From the IMG/VR virus record IMGVR_UViG_3300030329_001717, positions 1 to 30,118 of that record: 30,118 nt of DNA. One strand, given 5' to 3'. The notes beneath the pieces were generated by a model. It saw nothing but the letters and a program-made list of their open reading frames with translations, did no database searches and was not told where the DNA came from. This DNA is from a virus. Of the stretch, positions 3 through 5,666 are shown piece after piece. Numbering within the stretch: position 1 is the stretch's first letter; each line of letters starts with the position of its first letter. Both the position numbers and the translations under genes were made by a program.

Positions 3-277
3 CTATCACCTTCCTGCACAGCTAGGAGTACTCCCGCATGTCAGATTTGAAAATCACAGTGCTGCATCACAAAGACCCTGGTGCGGGCAATGAGGTGAGG
101 ATATGCATGGAGAGTCCAGACCAATCGGTATTGGATACAGGAATTGTGTCATATTTTGAGCAGTATCACCCAAGCGGATACATGACCCACGTTCTGTCAA
201 GATATAGTGTGCCAGGAGGGGAGAGGGCCATAATTAGTAGGCTGGCAAGCTGCGAGTAGAAGTGCCTATCACCTTCC
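3..277. repeat. 12-bp direct repeat pair (CTATCACCTTCC) flanking the first gene
   Basis: The identical 12-mer CTATCACCTTCC occurs at 3-14, before the first gene, and again at 266-277, just after its stop codon. A shorter related string (CACCTTCCC) recurs at about 1762, inside the integrase gene. No function is evident. Regulator or integrase binding sites are possible, and so is chance. Confidence 0.4.
38..259 (+). CDS. Small hypothetical protein (73 aa)
   Basis: I do not recognise this protein. The ATG at 38 is preceded by an AGGAG ribosome binding site at 24-28 with 9 bases of spacing, which supports both the start and the reality of the gene. The product is 73 residues, mixed in composition, with no transmembrane segment or signal peptide visible. 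It lies at the left edge of the accessory block upstream of the integrase and is bracketed by a 12-bp direct repeat. The position corresponds to the early region of T7-like phages, where small host-takeover proteins are common, but nothing in the sequence assigns such a role. Confidence 0.6.
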   Translation: MSDLKITVLHHKDPGAGNEVRICMESPDQSVLDTGIVSYFEQYHPSGYMTHVLSRYSVPGGERAIISRLASCE

Positions 278-320
278 CAAAGCGCACCCTTGACTCCCTC
301 CAACCAGTATGTGACAATAT

Positions 321-977
321 ATGTGTGGCCTAGTAACATGGAGCGTGGTAGGGAATATGAGCAGTTGGGAATCTGTATCTGTCACTTGGGAACAGAAAAT
401 AGGCATAGCCCTGCATTATTGCATCGAAGGGCGTATCCTAATTTTGACGGCAAAGTCGCTTAATCCTGCCGCTTACAAACAGTTAACGTCTACCATCACA
501 AATCTCAGCCAAAGAAACATACAATTAGCTTTGGATTTGGCGCTTCCCAAAAATGTCATAGAATATGTTACGCAAGGCGCGGCCAACATACATACCAAAA
601 AAGAATACAACTTCGAGGTCGAACTGGTTTCGGAGTTACTCGCAGATTACGAAGAGGTAATGGGGGAGCCCCACGCACTAGACGCTGTATTACCAGTGCT
701 GCGAAACACAGTAAGCAGCTTGACATTTTCTGACACTGACTTCGATCCAACTGGAGCGGAGCTAGACTCCATCTTATTAAAGTCTCGGCCTGCCTATGAG
801 GTGAGCCGTGCGAACATTTCCAATTTTGTATGCACGCAAATTGGTCTTGGATCAGGGGCTATTTTGAGGAGTCTAGGGTATACTCCTGATCTGACATTTG
901 CTGACACTTCGCGGTCAAATTTTCTACCATCATACTTCTCCCCTCGCACAGGGATAGGGGAATATGCAGGCTATTAG
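321..977 (+). CDS. Hypothetical protein (up to 218 aa)
   Basis: I do not recognise the family. The frame is open for 218 codons from the ATG at 321, but no ribosome binding site precedes that codon. The in-frame ATG at 357 has AGGG just upstream (350-353, short 3-base spacing) and would give 206 residues, so the start is uncertain. The product looks soluble, with an aliphatic helical centre (an LALDLALP stretch followed by a Glu-rich helix) and a Ser/Tyr/Gly-rich C-terminus. The stop overlaps the start of the next gene by 14 bases, suggesting an operon with the MarR-like gene. A regulator or early takeover protein is conceivable, but this is only inferred from position. Confidence 0.6.
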   Translation: MCGLVTWSVVGNMSSWESVSVTWEQKIGIALHYCIEGRILILTAKSLNPAAYKQLTSTITNLSQRNIQLALDLALPKNVIEYVTQGAANIHTKKEYNFEVELVSELLADYEEVMGEPHALDAVLPVLRNTVSSLTFSDTDFDPTGAELDSILLKSRPAYEVSRANISNFVCTQIGLGSGAILRSLGYTPDLTFADTSRSNFLPSYFSPRTGIGEYAGY

Positions 978-1290
978 AAGACTAAGGACTCTGACCAGAT
1001 ATCTCAGGTCGCTAGATAAATCCATGACGATGTTTCAGATCGAAGCCTTTCTGATCGTCGCGGATGACCCAGGGATAACAATGCGTGACGTTGAGGAGAG
1101 GATGGGTGTCGCCAACGCTACGACCTCTCGCAACATAAACTACTGGTGCAAGTGGCGACGGTTTGAAACACCCGGCATGGACTTTTTGTCCATCGATCCA
1201 GACCCAAGGGACAGGAGATATAAGATTGTCACTGTGACGCCAAAAGGCGAGGCGTTCCTGTCGAAGGTCAATGAGCTTATGGGGGATTAA
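964..1290 (+). CDS. MarR-like winged helix-turn-helix DNA-binding protein (108 aa)
   Basis: This is a probable transcription regulator. Residues 38-61 read as a helix-turn-helix (GITMRDVEERMG, then a recognition helix with TTSRN). Residues 78-95 form the wing typical of MarR proteins: a DPxDRR-type turn followed by a VTPKG strand. At 108 residues it is shorter than usual MarR proteins (about 140), so the N- and C-terminal dimerisation helices are reduced. The ATG at 964 is preceded by AGGGGA with good spacing and overlaps the preceding gene by 14 bases. Lying three genes before the integrase, it is the only recognisable DNA-binding regulator of the putative lysogeny block, with no CI or Cro-like protein seen. 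Repression of lytic or integrase genes is an inference. A PadR-like wHTH is an alternative. Confidence 0.75.
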   Translation: MQAIRRLRTLTRYLRSLDKSMTMFQIEAFLIVADDPGITMRDVEERMGVANATTSRNINYWCKWRRFETPGMDFLSIDPDPRDRRYKIVTVTPKGEAFLSKVNELMGD

Positions 1291-1296
1291 CCACAC

Positions 1297-1689
1297 ATGA
1301 GTTTTAAAGCCTATTTGGTTGAGCTAAAAAGCAAAGACGATATCGCATATTTAGATAGCTACCTGAGTGAGCCTGCCTTGGACGGTGTTGCGTGGCTAGA
1401 TCACATATACAGGGCGGATACGAAGCTGCCTGGATTCTCCAAGCACACATTGGTAGCAGCACTGACAGCCGACAGGGCAGACCTTGCCTCATCGATGGAG
1501 GATGAGGCGGGACTCGCCCCTAGACCTTTGAACATCCAGAGGCTGGATAATTTGCCAGATCACTGCAAGACATTGGAGGATCACGGGTGCAGCATTAAAG
1601 GGTGGACAGTCCCTAAATGGACATATGACACTTGGGTGCAGGAAGCCACACGGTACATTATGACTGTCCCATACGGAGCGCGCTTATGA
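1297..1689 (+). CDS. Hypothetical protein translationally coupled to the integrase (130 aa)
   Basis: I do not recognise this protein. It begins six bases after the MarR-like gene stops, behind a GGGGGA sequence, and its TGA (1687-1689) overlaps the integrase ATG (1686-1688), so the two are probably translated together. The product is 130 residues, soluble, mixed alpha/beta, with several Trp and Cys residues in the C-terminal half (GCSIKGWTVPKW). No clear helix-turn-helix or winged-helix is visible, so calling it an excisionase or directionality factor would be a guess based only on its position next to int. Confidence 0.65.
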   Translation: MSFKAYLVELKSKDDIAYLDSYLSEPALDGVAWLDHIYRADTKLPGFSKHTLVAALTADRADLASSMEDEAGLAPRPLNIQRLDNLPDHCKTLEDHGCSIKGWTVPKWTYDTWVQEATRYIMTVPYGARL

Positions 1690-2816
1690 GCATAACACAA
1701 CGCGGGAAAAGCTGGCGTGTTGCAGTGCGTGATCCGCTCCAGCAGCGGGTGATCACAGGCACCTTCCCAAACAAAGATCAGGCGGAAGCCTTCAGTCATT
1801 TATGCGCGCTCCACAAGGCGCAAGGCATCGCCTATCCAGATGCTCACACAGTGCAGGTTGGTGGCTCTGCGAGCTATTGGCTAAAGGCACACGATACTAT
1901 TTGGGGCAAGACCAAAAGCGATGTAGACATGCTCCGCATGACGCATAACTTGGTCAAAACTTTTGGAGCAAACACACCAATTACTGCGATATCCACTGCG
2001 AGAATTGTACAGTTTGTGGATGATTGCAAGGCTAGGCGTAACACAAATGCCACGATTAACCGGAAACTTAGCTGCTTGTCGCAGCTTTTGAAACACTGCA
2101 AAAGTGTGGGCATTATTACACGACTCCCCGATATTCCTCGCATGAAGGAGAGCCAGGGACGCATAAGGTTTCTGACAAAAGACGAGCAAGCCTTGTTACT
2201 ACAAACTTTCAAATTGTTTGGAGATGATGTCTCTTACCATGTGACAAGGTTTTTGCTGGCACAAGGTAACAGGTGTGGGGAGATCATGCAGACACCTCGC
2301 AATAGCGGGGAGGGATACCCCATCGAATGGAAGGATATCTCAGCGCCTTGGGGGACAGGTCCACAGGCTACGCATGTTGATCCAAAGACAGGGGCCAAGA
2401 CTCAGTACCCGGTTGTGACCTTCTGGTACACAAAGAACGGTCGCCCTCGCACTCAGCCGCTACTTAGGCCAGCCCAAGAGGCGCTGGCGTATTTCAAATC
2501 GCTTGGCTGGTCGAAACCTTTCGAGGGGATCAGCTACAAGAGCTACTACCACCGCTTTGTGCGTGCGCAGAAACATATAGGGCTGGGCGACGATCCAGAT
2601 TTTGTCCCGCATGTATTGCGCCACACAGTTGCCAGCGAATTCGTTATGCAAGCCAAAGATTTGAAGCGCGTGCAGGAGTGGATGGGGCACCTGACGATCC
2701 AGACGACAATGCGCTACGCACACCTCGCACCTTCCTCGCTGTTCTCGATGATACCCACAGATGATATTTTGCAGAGCGATGCTGGACGCGCACCCCACCT
2801 TACGCTAGTAAGCTAA
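1686..2816 (+). CDS. int: Tyrosine recombinase / phage integrase
   Basis: Site-specific integrase of the tyrosine recombinase family, which would join the phage attP to a host attB. The 376-residue product has an N-terminal arm-binding-like region (residues 1-45), a core-binding helical domain (about 60-150) and a C-terminal catalytic domain. The catalytic set is visible: R196 in NRCGEI, K250 in YTKNGR, H309 and R312 in HVLRH, H335 in WMGHL and Y344 in RYAHL. The start at 1686 is preferred over an in-frame ATG at 1632 because it forms an ATGA overlap with the previous stop, has GGAG upstream, and begins with the usual arm-domain strand (QRGKSWRV). A complete tRNA-Ser gene lies 10 bases downstream, as expected for an integrase next to its attachment site. 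Confidence 0.96.
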   Translation: MSITQRGKSWRVAVRDPLQQRVITGTFPNKDQAEAFSHLCALHKAQGIAYPDAHTVQVGGSASYWLKAHDTIWGKTKSDVDMLRMTHNLVKTFGANTPITAISTARIVQFVDDCKARRNTNATINRKLSCLSQLLKHCKSVGIITRLPDIPRMKESQGRIRFLTKDEQALLLQTFKLFGDDVSYHVTRFLLAQGNRCGEIMQTPRNSGEGYPIEWKDISAPWGTGPQATHVDPKTGAKTQYPVVTFWYTKNGRPRTQPLLRPAQEALAYFKSLGWSKPFEGISYKSYYHRFVRAQKHIGLGDDPDFVPHVLRHTVASEFVMQAKDLKRVQEWMGHLTIQTTMRYAHLAPSSLFSMIPTDDILQSDAGRAPHLTLVS

Positions 2817-2826
2817 TGCTGCGTTT

Positions 2827-2913
2827 GGAGGGATGGCAGAGTGGTAATGCAGTGGATTGCTAATCCATCTACCCGATAGGGTAGCGGGGGTTCGAGTCCC
2901 CCTCCCTCCGCCA
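2827..2913 (+). tRNA. tRNA-Ser (anticodon GCU), with encoded CCA
   Basis: A complete class II tRNA cloverleaf folds here. The acceptor stem is GGAGGGA (2827-2833) with TCCCTCC (2903-2909). The anticodon stem GTGGA/TCCAT (one G-T pair) holds the loop TTGCTAA with anticodon GCT. The long variable arm is CTACCC-GATA-GGGTAG, the hallmark of serine tRNAs, and the T arm is GGGGG-TTCGAGT-CCCCC. The discriminator is G2910 and CCA (2911-2913) is encoded. Only 10 bases separate it from the integrase stop, so it is probably cotranscribed with int. It could be a working lytic-phase tRNA, the attP identity segment, or both. Confidence 0.95.
2857..2913 (+). other. Candidate attP core (tRNA-Ser anticodon loop to 3' end)
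   Basis: Tyrosine integrases of phages commonly recombine within a tRNA gene, with the phage supplying the 3' part so the host tRNA is rebuilt. The full 3' half of a tRNA-Ser lies directly after the integrase gene. The 10-mer TTGCTAATCC from the anticodon loop (2857-2866) recurs at 3023-3032 in the following gap, giving a second possible core. The crossover point cannot be fixed from one sequence; this call is inference from position. Confidence 0.45.
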
Positions 2914-3073
2914 GCTAACTTGTTGATAGTTAATGGTAACAGGGATGGTGCAAAAACGTACCATTTGGTGTTATCAAAACCCTAATATGCTGTAATTAAA
3001 CAACAAATAGAGGTATAACGGTTTGCTAATCCGCTTCTAAACTAAGCATGTTTGGTAGTAAATACCTGTAAGG

Positions 3074-3105
3074 GTGCCTAAGCCCTTGTGGCTACGGCAC
3101 TTTTT
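3074..3105 (+). terminator. Rho-independent terminator upstream of RNA polymerase
   Basis: GTGCC (3074-3078) pairs with GGCAC (3096-3100). Inside, AGCC pairs with GGCT across a 2x2 internal loop and a CTTGT loop, and five T residues follow directly (3101-3105). It would end transcripts coming from the int-tRNA block and insulate the RNA polymerase gene. Confidence 0.75.
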
Positions 3106-3112
3106 AATGGCT

Positions 3113-3166
3113 TAATGCATACCAAACAGTATCCAATACAGTTAATCTGTTACCAATCTGGAGAGG
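3113..3166 (+). promoter_or_regulatory. Degenerate copies of the phage promoter motif ahead of RNA polymerase
   Basis: TAATGCATACCAA at 3113-3125 matches the first 13 bases of the clear phage promoters at 5664 and 9452 at all but one position (treating the variable C/T as a match), but the GGGAC initiation block is absent. A second, looser copy follows at 3143-3156 (TAAT, four bases, TACCAA) with GGAGAGG near the expected position, which is also the ribosome binding site of the polymerase gene. They may be weak promoters, a polymerase autoregulation site, or decayed copies. Confidence 0.4.
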
Positions 3167-3173
3167 CCACTCA

Positions 3174-5666
3174 ATGATTAAAGCAGCGCAGCTTTTGCAG
3201 GAACAAAAAGAACTGGAAGGCGATTCCTACGTTCAAACTCTTCGTCGCTACCACAAAATGCATGACAAGGCATCTCGGCGGAACGACTACTCTAGCTCCC
3301 ATTGCGGCAGGGCAGTAGTCGAGCATTGCATTCGTCCTTTTGAAATCGCCATAGAAAATTTCATCGAAGAAAGCAAGGCAGGGAAGCCTGGAAGGCGCAG
3401 TCAGGTCGCTGATTTGCTGGTGCAGTTAGATGTACCCACGGTTGCCTATCTGTTCTCTAAGGCAATTTTCAATTTTGTCCCTATTCATATTAAGGAGGGA
3501 AAAACAGCAGCAGCCAGTGCAGTTGCCATCAAATCCAGCCAGATGCTTCACGACGAATTGAGGATGCGCTGGTTCCACGCAAATTATCGTGCGTACACCA
3601 AAAAGATGCTGCGATCCTTCGACGCGGACAACCTTTCCCGCCATCGTCGCCGCGACATCGTGCAGCGCAAGTTCCGCCAGATGGAGATGGAGTGGAAAAT
3701 CTGGTCCACAGCGGAGATGGTCAAACTAGGCGTCAAGTTATTGGAGCTATTCCGCGACAGCACTGGAATGATCCAGATCGTCCAAGTCGCAGAACAAAAG
3801 CGGCGCAGGAAGATTGTGCAAGCAACCCCTGCACTCCTTGAGAAGATAGGCGAAAGGATGGCTGCTAACGAGTCGATCTTTTCGGTATATCAGCCAATGA
3901 TTATACCGCCAAAACCTTGGGAGGAGGGAGGACTTTATGGAGGAGGTTACTACACAGACAAGGTTAGTCGATATCCGTTGATCAAAGGTGTCAAGCGAAC
4001 CTTCTTAGAAGAACTGAACAACGTCGATATGAGTAGAGTGCTTCGCGCAATTAACGCGATCCAAGAAACACCTTTCCGCGTGAATCCAATTGTTGTCGAT
4101 TTGCTGGAACACATTTTTGAAAGCAATCGTGAGATTGCAGAGGTGCCTCTTTACGAGCAAGAGCAAATACCGGAAGCCCCGCTTGGCGCGGATAAGCCAG
4201 GGCCGATCAAGGATCAGTACAGGCGCGACTGCTACGCGGTCCATGACAGAAATCGACGGCGTATCAGCAAGCGCCTGATGGTCGCACGGTCAATCAACGT
4301 AGCCAGAAAATTTTCAAAATACGAGCGAATATACTTCCCGCTGCAAGCGGACAGTCGAGGTCGCTTGTACCCTGTGCCAGCAATATTCAACACCCAGGGT
4401 CCAGACTTCATTCGCGCCATGATCGAATACGCGGAAGGCAAGCCCATCGACAACGAAGAGGCTGCTGCTTGGCTGGCAATCATTGGTGCCAATCACTGGG
4501 GCGAAGATAAGGTCAGTCTCCAAGCGCGTGTTGATTGGGTGATGGACAACCAGCAGATGATCTTGGAGATAGCAGCCGATCCTTTTGGTGATCTGCGATG
4601 GACTGAGGCAGATGAGCCTTTCCAGTTCGTTAGGTGGGCGATGGCTTGGAGCGAGTTTCGCGCTGAAGGTTATGGCTACGTTTGTCACTTGCCCGCAAAT
4701 GTAGATGCCACTTGCTCAGGGATGCAGATTTTCTCAGCAGCACTAAAAGACAGGGAAGGTGCGCGGTGGGTCAACCTAACAAACAACCAGCAGCGTCAGG
4801 ACATTTATCAAGCTGTCGCAGACAGGGCGATGGACCATATGCGCGCAGAAACAGACCCTGAGAAAATGCCGTATGCGAAAGCGGCAGTAGATTTTGGTGT
4901 ATCCAGAGCTATGACCAAACGTCCGACGATGGTCGTGCCCTACAGTGGAACCTTCCACGCATGTATGAAGTATACGCGGGATGGCATCCAAGAGCGTCTG
5001 AAAAAAGGCGAGCCTCACCCTTGGCCGCATGACAAGAACGATGGCAAATTCATTGCTTATGTTGCTGGTGCAATCTGGCAAGCAATTGATGATACGATAC
5101 CTGCTGCTAGGGAGTGCATGCGGTGGTTACAGGCTGCTAGCAGGCTTATCAGCAAGAGCGAGACACCGTTGCCTATGATCTGGTGGACACCGGATGGCAT
5201 GCCAGTGCAGCAAGCTAGGTATGTTCAGACAACAGAGCGTGTCAGCACCTTCCTAGACGGCTCAAGGGTACGCCTAGACATCCACCATGACACAAAGGCA
5301 CTGGACCCTAAGCGGATGGCGTCCAGCGTTGCTCCAAACTGGGTACATAGCCTAGATGCCTCAGTGATGCGAGAGGCAGTCAACCATGCCTTGGAGATTG
5401 AAGACGGAACAGGGCGAGGGCGGATGTATTTCAACATGATCCATGACTCTTTTGGAGTACATGTCTCTGACCTGCCTGACTTTTTAAATAAATGCATCAA
5501 GCCAGCGTTCGTCAAAATCTTTGGCGACGACGATGTGATAGACAACTTTGAGCGAGAGGTGAGGAGCATCCTTGACGATGACCAGCAAGACAAACTTCCA
5601 CCAGCGCCAGTGCGCGGTGACTTCGACATCAGGGAGGTGATCAACAATGATTTCTTTTTCTCCTAA
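3174..5666 (+). CDS. T7-like single-subunit DNA-directed RNA polymerase
   Basis: Phage RNA polymerase that transcribes the middle and late genes from phage-specific promoters. It has 830 residues against 883 in T7. Catalytic landmarks are all present: D511 in VDATCSGMQ (T7 D537), K582 and Y590 in the AMTKRPTMVVPYSG segment (T7 K631/Y639, same spacing of 8), and D758 in IHDSFG (T7 D812). The C-terminus ends in aromatic residues (FFFS) rather than the T7 FAFA, the same general character. The ATG at 3174 follows GGAGAGG with suitable spacing. It is the first gene after the intergenic region and terminator, matching T7 gene 1 order. Its promoter-recognition loop must read the motif seen at 5664 and 9452 if those are its sites. 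Confidence 0.98.
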   Translation: MIKAAQLLQEQKELEGDSYVQTLRRYHKMHDKASRRNDYSSSHCGRAVVEHCIRPFEIAIENFIEESKAGKPGRRSQVADLLVQLDVPTVAYLFSKAIFNFVPIHIKEGKTAAASAVAIKSSQMLHDELRMRWFHANYRAYTKKMLRSFDADNLSRHRRRDIVQRKFRQMEMEWKIWSTAEMVKLGVKLLELFRDSTGMIQIVQVAEQKRRRKIVQATPALLEKIGERMAANESIFSVYQPMIIPPKPWEEGGLYGGGYYTDKVSRYPLIKGVKRTFLEELNNVDMSRVLRAINAIQETPFRVNPIVVDLLEHIFESNREIAEVPLYEQEQIPEAPLGADKPGPIKDQYRRDCYAVHDRNRRRISKRLMVARSINVARKFSKYERIYFPLQADSRGRLYPVPAIFNTQGPDFIRAMIEYAEGKPIDNEEAAAWLAIIGANHWGEDKVSLQARVDWVMDNQQMILEIAADPFGDLRWTEADEPFQFVRWAMAWSEFRAEGYGYVCHLPANVDATCSGMQIFSAALKDREGARWVNLTNNQQRQDIYQAVADRAMDHMRAETDPEKMPYAKAAVDFGVSRAMTKRPTMVVPYSGTFHACMKYTRDGIQERLKKGEPHPWPHDKNDGKFIAYVAGAIWQAIDDTIPAARECMRWLQAASRLISKSETPLPMIWWTPDGMPVQQARYVQTTERVSTFLDGSRVRLDIHHDTKALDPKRMASSVAPNWVHSLDASVMREAVNHALEIEDGTGRGRMYFNMIHDSFGVHVSDLPDFLNKCIKPAFVKIFGDDDVIDNFEREVRSILDDDQQDKLPPAPVRGDFDIREVINNDFFFS

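Follow-up and report, generated by a model that had tools for sequence, protein, structure and literature searches.

A putative MarR-integrase lysogeny module with a proposed tRNA-associated attachment site upstream of the RNA polymerase gene of a T7-like phage

Gene content upstream of the RNA polymerase

The 30,118-base IMG/VR virus record IMGVR_UViG_3300030329_001717, analysed here over its whole length (hereafter the window), carries five open reading frames (ORFs) on the forward strand at its left end, followed by a T7-like RNA polymerase (RNAP) gene. A MarR-like gene and a tyrosine integrase gene (int) are among them, and this study concerns the putative lysogeny module which these genes may form with a tRNA gene, counted here as part of the block, and a proposed phage attachment site (attP) in the gap between int and RNAP. 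The features of this region, with their strand, are as follows:

38-259, + strand, 73-amino-acid ORF of unknown function, common only to the close relatives L013, L014, L016 and L017 (41-62%)
321-977, + strand, 218-amino-acid ORF of unknown function; L014 has a 182-amino-acid ORF at the same place, 28% alike
964-1290, + strand, MarR-like winged-helix protein of 108 amino acids
1297-1689, + strand, 130-amino-acid ORF of unknown function, replaced in and absent from L014, 3′ of int in L019
1686-2816, + strand, tyrosine integrase of 376 amino acids from the ATG at 1686, catalytic residues invariant
2827-2913, + strand, complete tRNA-Ser(GCT) with encoded CCA, proposed substitute for a host tRNA broken by integration
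2932-2973, + strand, three degenerate repeats (AATGGTAACA, GATGGTGCAA, TTTGGTGTTA), whose starts are spaced by 12 and 20, as also observed in relatives; putative int-side arm sites
3020-3032, + strand, anticodon stem-loop of tRNA-Ser in a second copy (GGTTTGCTAATCC), putative attP core
3049-3057, + strand, TGTTTGGTA, matched exactly in inverted orientation by 3120-3128, putative arm site
3070-3105, + strand, hairpin followed by TTTTT between the attP core and the polymerase gene, probable terminator (-19.1 kcal/mol; z -1.6)
3120-3128, - strand, TACCAAACA in the + strand reading, counterpart of the repeat at 3049-3057, putative polymerase-side arm site
3147-3155, - strand, CTGTTACCA as read on the + strand, repeats TGGTAACAG (2934-2942) exactly in inverted orientation, putative arm site
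3174-5666, + strand, T7-like RNAP (PHROG 414; e-value: 1e-218), first gene beyond attP

The genes, coordinates and overlaps reported in an initial annotation of this sequence were confirmed, with the ORF at 321-977 overlapping the MarR-like gene by 14 bp and the ORF at 1297-1689 overlapping int by 4 bp. The MarR-like and tyrosine integrase genes are located upstream of the T7-like RNAP gene on the same strand. All recognised genes of the block are encoded on the forward strand and no divergent regulator pair is present, an arrangement which is not that of a CI-type switch. The 73-, 218- and 130-amino-acid proteins show no meaningful match in Pfam, PHROGs or NCBIfam, while profile and viral scans gave no relatives of the latter two, except for the copies in L014 and L019 that were seen in their genomic context. 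The five genes do not constitute a conserved cassette, and wide recurrence is limited to MarR and int. The 130-amino-acid ORF separates MarR from int in the window, which is unusual for MarR-int modules. A short sequence, ATCACCTTCC, recurs ahead of early ORFs in the window (5-14 and 268-277), L014 (2-11) and L013 (1729-1738).

The MarR-like protein

The 108-amino-acid protein matches PHROG 9665 ('transcriptional regulator'; e-value: 1.4e-20), while its score against Pfam MarR_2 falls under the cut-off (21.4 vs 27 bits); it belongs instead to the divergent phage branch represented by PHROG 9665. A profile of its sequence furthermore retrieves MarR chains (e-value: 3.6e-6). The AlphaFold model (predicted local distance difference test, pLDDT: 94.9) comprises helices at residues 2-17, 23-34, 40-47 and 51-60, a β wing and a helix at 93-105, and its top matches among solved structures are MarR proteins (3bpx; template modelling (TM) score: 0.70), while the top viral structure match is Gp0.7 of cyanophage P-SSP2 (TM: 0.89). 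As modelled, the protein has a MarR winged-helix fold. The predicted recognition helix (51-60) contains S55-R56, and the aligned counterparts of S55, R56 and G95 in the pMarR protein of cyanophage P-SSP7 are S66, R67 and G106, which are required there for the Ca2+ effect, DNA binding and self-interaction, respectively (PMC9692554). Both R56, the DNA-recognition arginine, and G95, the dimer-contact glycine, are invariant in the MarR alignment, in which a conservation scan yielded no stretch that was sufficiently conserved. The protein ends after helix 5 and, with 108 amino acids vs about 130-150 residues in most of the matched solved MarR chains, is short, leaving the control by a small molecule envisaged in the initial annotation unsupported.

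Linkage of MarR and integrase in related phages

Loci around T7-like RNAPs, 80 viral and 80 from bacterial genomes, were profile-searched for RNAP, integrase and MarR and reduced to clusters at 80% RNAP identity. Among the virus clusters with enough sequence, MarR adjoins int in 26/29 of those with int before RNAP and is present in 0/5 of those lacking int (Fisher p = 2e-4), the latter group being small. The window's own cluster was scored as MarR-less on the basis of L013, which has the most upstream sequence and lacks MarR, while the window and L014 carry it. A MarR match is also found directly before this kind of integrase in sixteen of the eighteen whole genomes with T7-like RNAPs, and all cultured phages with MarR that were inspected, among them cyanophages, have int directly behind it. 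Far from being absent from most integrase-bearing relatives, MarR is thus linked to the integrase in these clusters and genomes, which supports the lysogeny module proposed in the initial annotation.

The nearest named phages, Roseobacter phages CRP-403, CRP-804 and CRP-118, encode a MarR-type gene just before int with RNAP further on, as do LUZ100, HTVC119P, HTVC022P, P-SSP7, S-TIP37, S-CBP2, S-CBP3 and RHEph21. The same order is found in a Limnohabitans phage and in Mycobacterium phage jiawei, where the MarR-type gene is annotated as hypothetical. The MarR-integrase-polymerase order as such spans cyano-, pelagi-, roseo-, rhizobial and Pseudomonas T7-like phages. In L135 (14909-16324), the MarR-int pair is found on the downstream rather than the upstream side of a T7-like RNAP, at a distance of several kb, suggesting that the pair moves as a unit. 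The phage order MarR-int-tRNA-RNAP is also present in the isolate genome of Chelatococcus sambhunathii DSM 18167, on a 40-kb contig (L104) which is perhaps excised or circular phage DNA. The 100-kb record IMGVR_UViG_3300030329_001736 (L019), with a T7-like module near 11 kb, harbors an opposite-strand replication module at about 62-80 kb (L204; DNA polymerase, primase-helicase and ribonucleotide reductase, by eye) that apparently belongs to another phage, and is possibly a chimera.

Gene order and split tRNAs in integrated relatives

In bacterial genomes, int is seldom located before RNAP, and a whole-genome search places MarR-int at the far end of the prophage. RNAP and MarR-int are 37-44 kb apart in ten prophages, namely that of Pseudomonas putida HAI-2 (RNAP start near 600.4 kb; MarR-int at 638.7-640.0 kb) and those of Methylovorus, Litchfieldella, Polynucleobacter, Reyranella, proteobacterium G007, Rhizobiales G012, Aminobacter, Rhodopseudomonas and Marinicella. 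The ends of the P. putida, Methylovorus and Marinicella prophages are marked by 55-60 bp direct repeats in tRNA-Leu(TAG) or tRNA-Phe, one copy lying just 5′ of RNAP and the other just 3′ of int. The attP site is therefore located between int and RNAP, and on integration RNAP is parted from int, MarR and the early region, a separation which would be expected to silence the polymerase gene.

In the Rhizobiales (G012), Aminobacter (G013) and Litchfieldella (G018) prophages, the core is only 12-14 bp long and corresponds to the tRNA-Leu(TAG) anticodon stem-loop. No tRNA is encoded at either junction of these three prophages, while joining of the host flanks yields tRNA-Leu(TAG); the short core as such does not rebuild the host tRNA. 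Each of the three prophages holds a complete tRNA-Leu(TAG), and the other leucine tRNAs found by similarity have CAG or GAG anticodons. The similarity search detected no intact TAG tRNA-Leu other than the phage copy in these genomes, although a more divergent host copy could conceivably escape it. In actinobacteriophages, a pattern of this kind has been termed tRNA-dependent lysogeny (PMC10865867). A similar picture is apparent for tRNA-Leu(TAA) in Rhodopseudomonas (G016), whose right junction was not resolved. A second anticodon-loop copy (8-14 bp) is furthermore present in the int-RNAP gap of 14 of the 17 integrase loci in which int is adjoined by a tRNA, including the window, L014, LUZ100 and HTVC119P; the copy in the Limnohabitans phage is on the opposite strand. 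In shuffled controls the mean longest match was about 2 bp or less, with matches below 8 bp scored as zero.

The integrase, proposed attP core and flanking repeats of the window

The integrase residues R196, K250, R312, H335 and Y344 are invariant in the alignment (A4), and the catalytic set is complete. The proposed core and the tRNA-Ser anticodon loop both fit the pattern GGNTTGCTAATCC with zero mismatches, and the second copy has 10 bp identical to tRNA-Ser in the window, compared with 14 bp in L014. Judging by the layout and the match of the anticodon loop to the core, the phage probably integrates into tRNA-Ser(GCT), and tRNA-dependent lysogeny is likewise probable. The complete tRNA-Ser was also considered as attP itself, and set aside in favour of the second anticodon-loop copy by parallel with the split-tRNA prophages.

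The repeats flanking the core are best considered together with those of the relatives. Apart from the TGGTAACAG/CTGTTACCA pair, the 30 kb contain no exact copy, an observation which is weak when taken alone, as 1/100 shuffles also reaches two copies. The gaps of L014-L017 contain three repeats of 8-10 bp, with starts 12 and 19-20 apart (TGTGACAC or AATGGTCA), and distant phages and prophages likewise have comparable repeats to either side of the core, the motif differing in each. In hand-chosen segments, 7-mers common across the core are more frequent within a phage than between phages (4.4 vs 1.45 per 1e4; p = 4e-4). Arm-like repeats are present in L109, where int is found and MarR was not detected, and absent in L106, L119 and L151, which carry MarR without this integrase. 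For the repeats at 2932-2973 and 3120-3155, a role as integrase arm sites is more plausible than one as MarR operators, and arm-type sites also surround the cores of actinobacteriophages (PMC10865867).

The reading of the gap repeats as MarR operators was initially attractive, given their three copies, fixed spacing, occurrence in four relatives and loss together with MarR in L013. It was rejected as the main explanation because of the presence of repeats 3′ of int, where nothing is regulated, the match across the core, the repeats without MarR in L109 and their absence from MarR-bearing integrase-less loci. The co-loss in L013 is uninformative, because attP was lost as well. The binding of MarR at 2914-3173 suggested in the initial annotation finds no support, the repeats there flanking the core and resembling integrase arm sites. 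The hairpin between the core and RNAP has a counterpart in L014 (z -2.95), and a hairpin with a T-run precedes RNAP in 13/40 MarR-int phages (4.5 expected) and 7/10 prophages (1.8 expected). As these are also found in 8/25 integrase-less viruses (2.2 expected), they are not specific to lysogeny.

Candidate MarR targets

The regions upstream of marR and of RNAP in the window have no motif in common, and a scan for sigma-70 sites was uninformative (8 sites vs 6.9 expected). Two general signals were rejected as too weak, namely a palindrome before RNAP (above z = 2 in 8/47 MarR phages vs 9/116 without MarR) and the motif TTACn4-8GTAA (9 hits with 2.5 expected in MarR phages, vs 7 hits with 4.2 expected). 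Palindromes were, however, found in two relatives with MarR and without this integrase. In L119, TATCANNTTCTGATA is located before the second marR copy, before RNAP and after RNAP, with nine matches at two or fewer mismatches vs 0.48 expected, and in L151, TTCAATTTTGAA is similarly placed (17 vs 3.7 expected). Because these palindromes precede marR and both precede and follow RNAP in integrase-less relatives, they suggest that phage MarR proteins may control both marR and the polymerase gene in the L119/L151 lineage. In a Vampirovibrionales metagenome-assembled genome (MAG), T7-like RNAP genes are immediately preceded by tandem MarR genes, with three copies in L106 (5319-6722) and two in L119 (5883-6719). 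Palindromes of 15 bp precede the second marR copy in both loci, and in L119 also occur before and after RNAP.

A model for lysogeny in a T7-like phage

We consider it on balance probable that this T7-like phage is temperate and that the block is its lysogeny module, in which the polymerase is severed at attP, a replacement tRNA is carried and MarR acts on the polymerase. Host RNA polymerase would transcribe the early genes, MarR and integrase, whose gene order is that observed in the window. The integrase would recombine attP (core about 3020-3032, flanked to left and right by arm repeats) with the host tRNA-Ser(GCT) at its anticodon loop, the putative target indicated by the second anticodon-loop copy present in the window. 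Because attP lies between int and the polymerase gene, the phage circle would open there on integration. The polymerase gene would thereby come to lie at one end of the prophage, behind the disrupted host tRNA and the hairpin terminator, and the opposite end, about 40 kb away, would hold the early genes together with MarR and int, as in the prophage order observed in the relatives, so that the polymerase would be cut off from the early promoters and probably silenced by this severance. The phage tRNA-Ser, complete in the window, would take over from the broken host gene, as the split tRNAs and intact phage tRNAs of the relatives suggest. MarR, with its modelled fold in the window and its observed linkage to int in the relatives, would be produced from the int end and most likely hold polymerase transcription down.

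Comparison with known systems

MarR-based lysis-lysogeny control of integrase-bearing T7-like phages has already been proposed (PMC10134795, citing Boeckman 2022 and Zhao 2019), and the MarR-based switch as such is not new, contrary to what the initial annotation had supposed. The lysogeny cassette of LUZ100, in which MarR is proposed by its authors to repress the polymerase promoter and from which no stable lysogens were obtained (PMC10134795), is like that of the window in having MarR before int followed by RNAP, a terminator after int, a tRNA beside int and a proposed control of RNAP by MarR. The window hairpin (3070-3105) furthermore resembles the LUZ100 terminator T4. The MarR proteins, however, share only about 32% identity, and the LUZ100 tRNA-Leu is located between MarR and int, whereas the tRNA of the window follows int. 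While its authors interpreted the LUZ100 tRNA as a product of imprecise excision (PMC10134795), replacement of a broken host tRNA appears to be the better explanation, because the prophages described here point to a broken host tRNA. The gp0.7/pMarR-int-gp1 region of P-SSP7 has the same gene order as the window and a homologous MarR with identical essential residues, and differs in that activation of the host gene rne by pMarR has been demonstrated, Ca2+ enhancing the binding of pMarR (PMC9692554).

With the cluster L phage Fionnbharth, the proposed system would share a core of ~10 bp in a host tRNA which is not rebuilt, a phage tRNA of the same isotype, and arm-type sites around the core (PMC10865867). 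The dependence of lysogeny on the tRNA has been shown with mutants in the actinobacteriophages, whereas in the T7-like phages it is deduced from prophage ends and, for the window, from layout. In integration-dependent immunity (PMC10865867), integration itself alters the arrangement of a regulatory gene, as it would here. There, the repressor gene is restructured into its active form, whereas the gene order described here suggests that the polymerase is parted from its promoters.

Alternative explanations

Several observations weigh against the proposed lysogeny module. The window yielded no palindromic MarR operator, and no host genome carrying this phage integrated, with its bacterial attachment site (attB), was found. 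L013 (IMGVR_UViG_3300047669_001012; 1654-3395), one of the two nearest relatives (RNAP 85%; int 64%), has lost MarR, the tRNA and the whole attP gap, with int overlapping the RNAP start codon. The terminator of the window only modestly beats its shuffles, 13/200 of which fold equally well, and the P-SSP7 pMarR activates a host gene (PMC9692554). The latter would be in keeping with MarR as an early host-takeover factor, redirecting host transcription (e.g. of RNase E) with no role in lysogeny. The P-SSP7 protein is a DNA-binding activator of rne that contacts the alpha subunit of the host RNAP (PMC9692554), its S66, R67 and G106 have their aligned counterparts in the window, and the MarR of HTVC022P is expressed early (PMC12753301). 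Strictly lytic phages should, however, benefit from such a factor too, yet the integrase-less virus clusters, only five in number, are without MarR, which accompanies the integrase and has int directly behind it in every MarR-bearing cultured phage looked at, and we regard this function as unlikely.

The strict adjacency of MarR to int in phage and prophage order, and the repeats on both sides of the core, could also reflect a role of MarR as recombination directionality factor or accessory protein of the integrase, bound to the repeats surrounding attP in the manner of an excisionase, many excisionases being winged-helix proteins. This role is rather improbable, since three loci (Vampirovibrionales and cyanobacterial MAGs) carry MarR but not this integrase, with one to three MarR copies directly before RNAP and with palindromes rather than these repeats, L109 has arm-like repeats with MarR not detected, and the fold matches MarR repressors. 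That the phage is now lytic and retains the lysogeny genes as remnants would agree with the losses in L013, which belongs to the same 80% RNAP cluster, and with the lack of stable LUZ100 lysogens (PMC10134795), but is very improbable given that the window and L014 keep all int catalytic residues, the tRNA, the core and the repeats. Hardly credible is a ligand-responsive MarR repressor acting as lysis-lysogeny switch through operators at 2914-3173, as put forward in the initial annotation. The TGGTAACAG/CTGTTACCA repeats at both ends of the int-RNAP gap and the promoter repression proposed by the LUZ100 authors (PMC10134795) would fit such a switch, whereas arm sites better explain the repeats, because these lie after int with no gene following, match across the core and occur without MarR; a ligand likewise finds no support in a protein that stops after helix 5.

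Implications for T7-like phages

What the present analysis adds to the published MarR proposals is the integrated gene order and the replacement tRNA, which are firm in the relatives and which we infer for the window; the newness of the permuted prophage order is stated with reserve. T7-like phages have long been taken as strictly lytic, and the prophage ends offer a concrete and testable answer to how lysogeny is controlled in the temperate ones, in that integration would part the polymerase gene from its promoters and phages of several lineages would have to bring their own tRNA. We tentatively propose, as a possibility that is still doubtful, that integration itself is the switch in T7-like phages, disconnecting the polymerase, with the phage tRNA making the break tolerable and MarR only holding the state, the window representing a tRNA-Ser version. 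The spread of tRNA-dependent lysogeny beyond the actinobacteriophages was noted to need study (PMC10865867), and if the proposal is true, such lysogeny would extend beyond this group, with knock-out predictions following for phages such as LUZ100.

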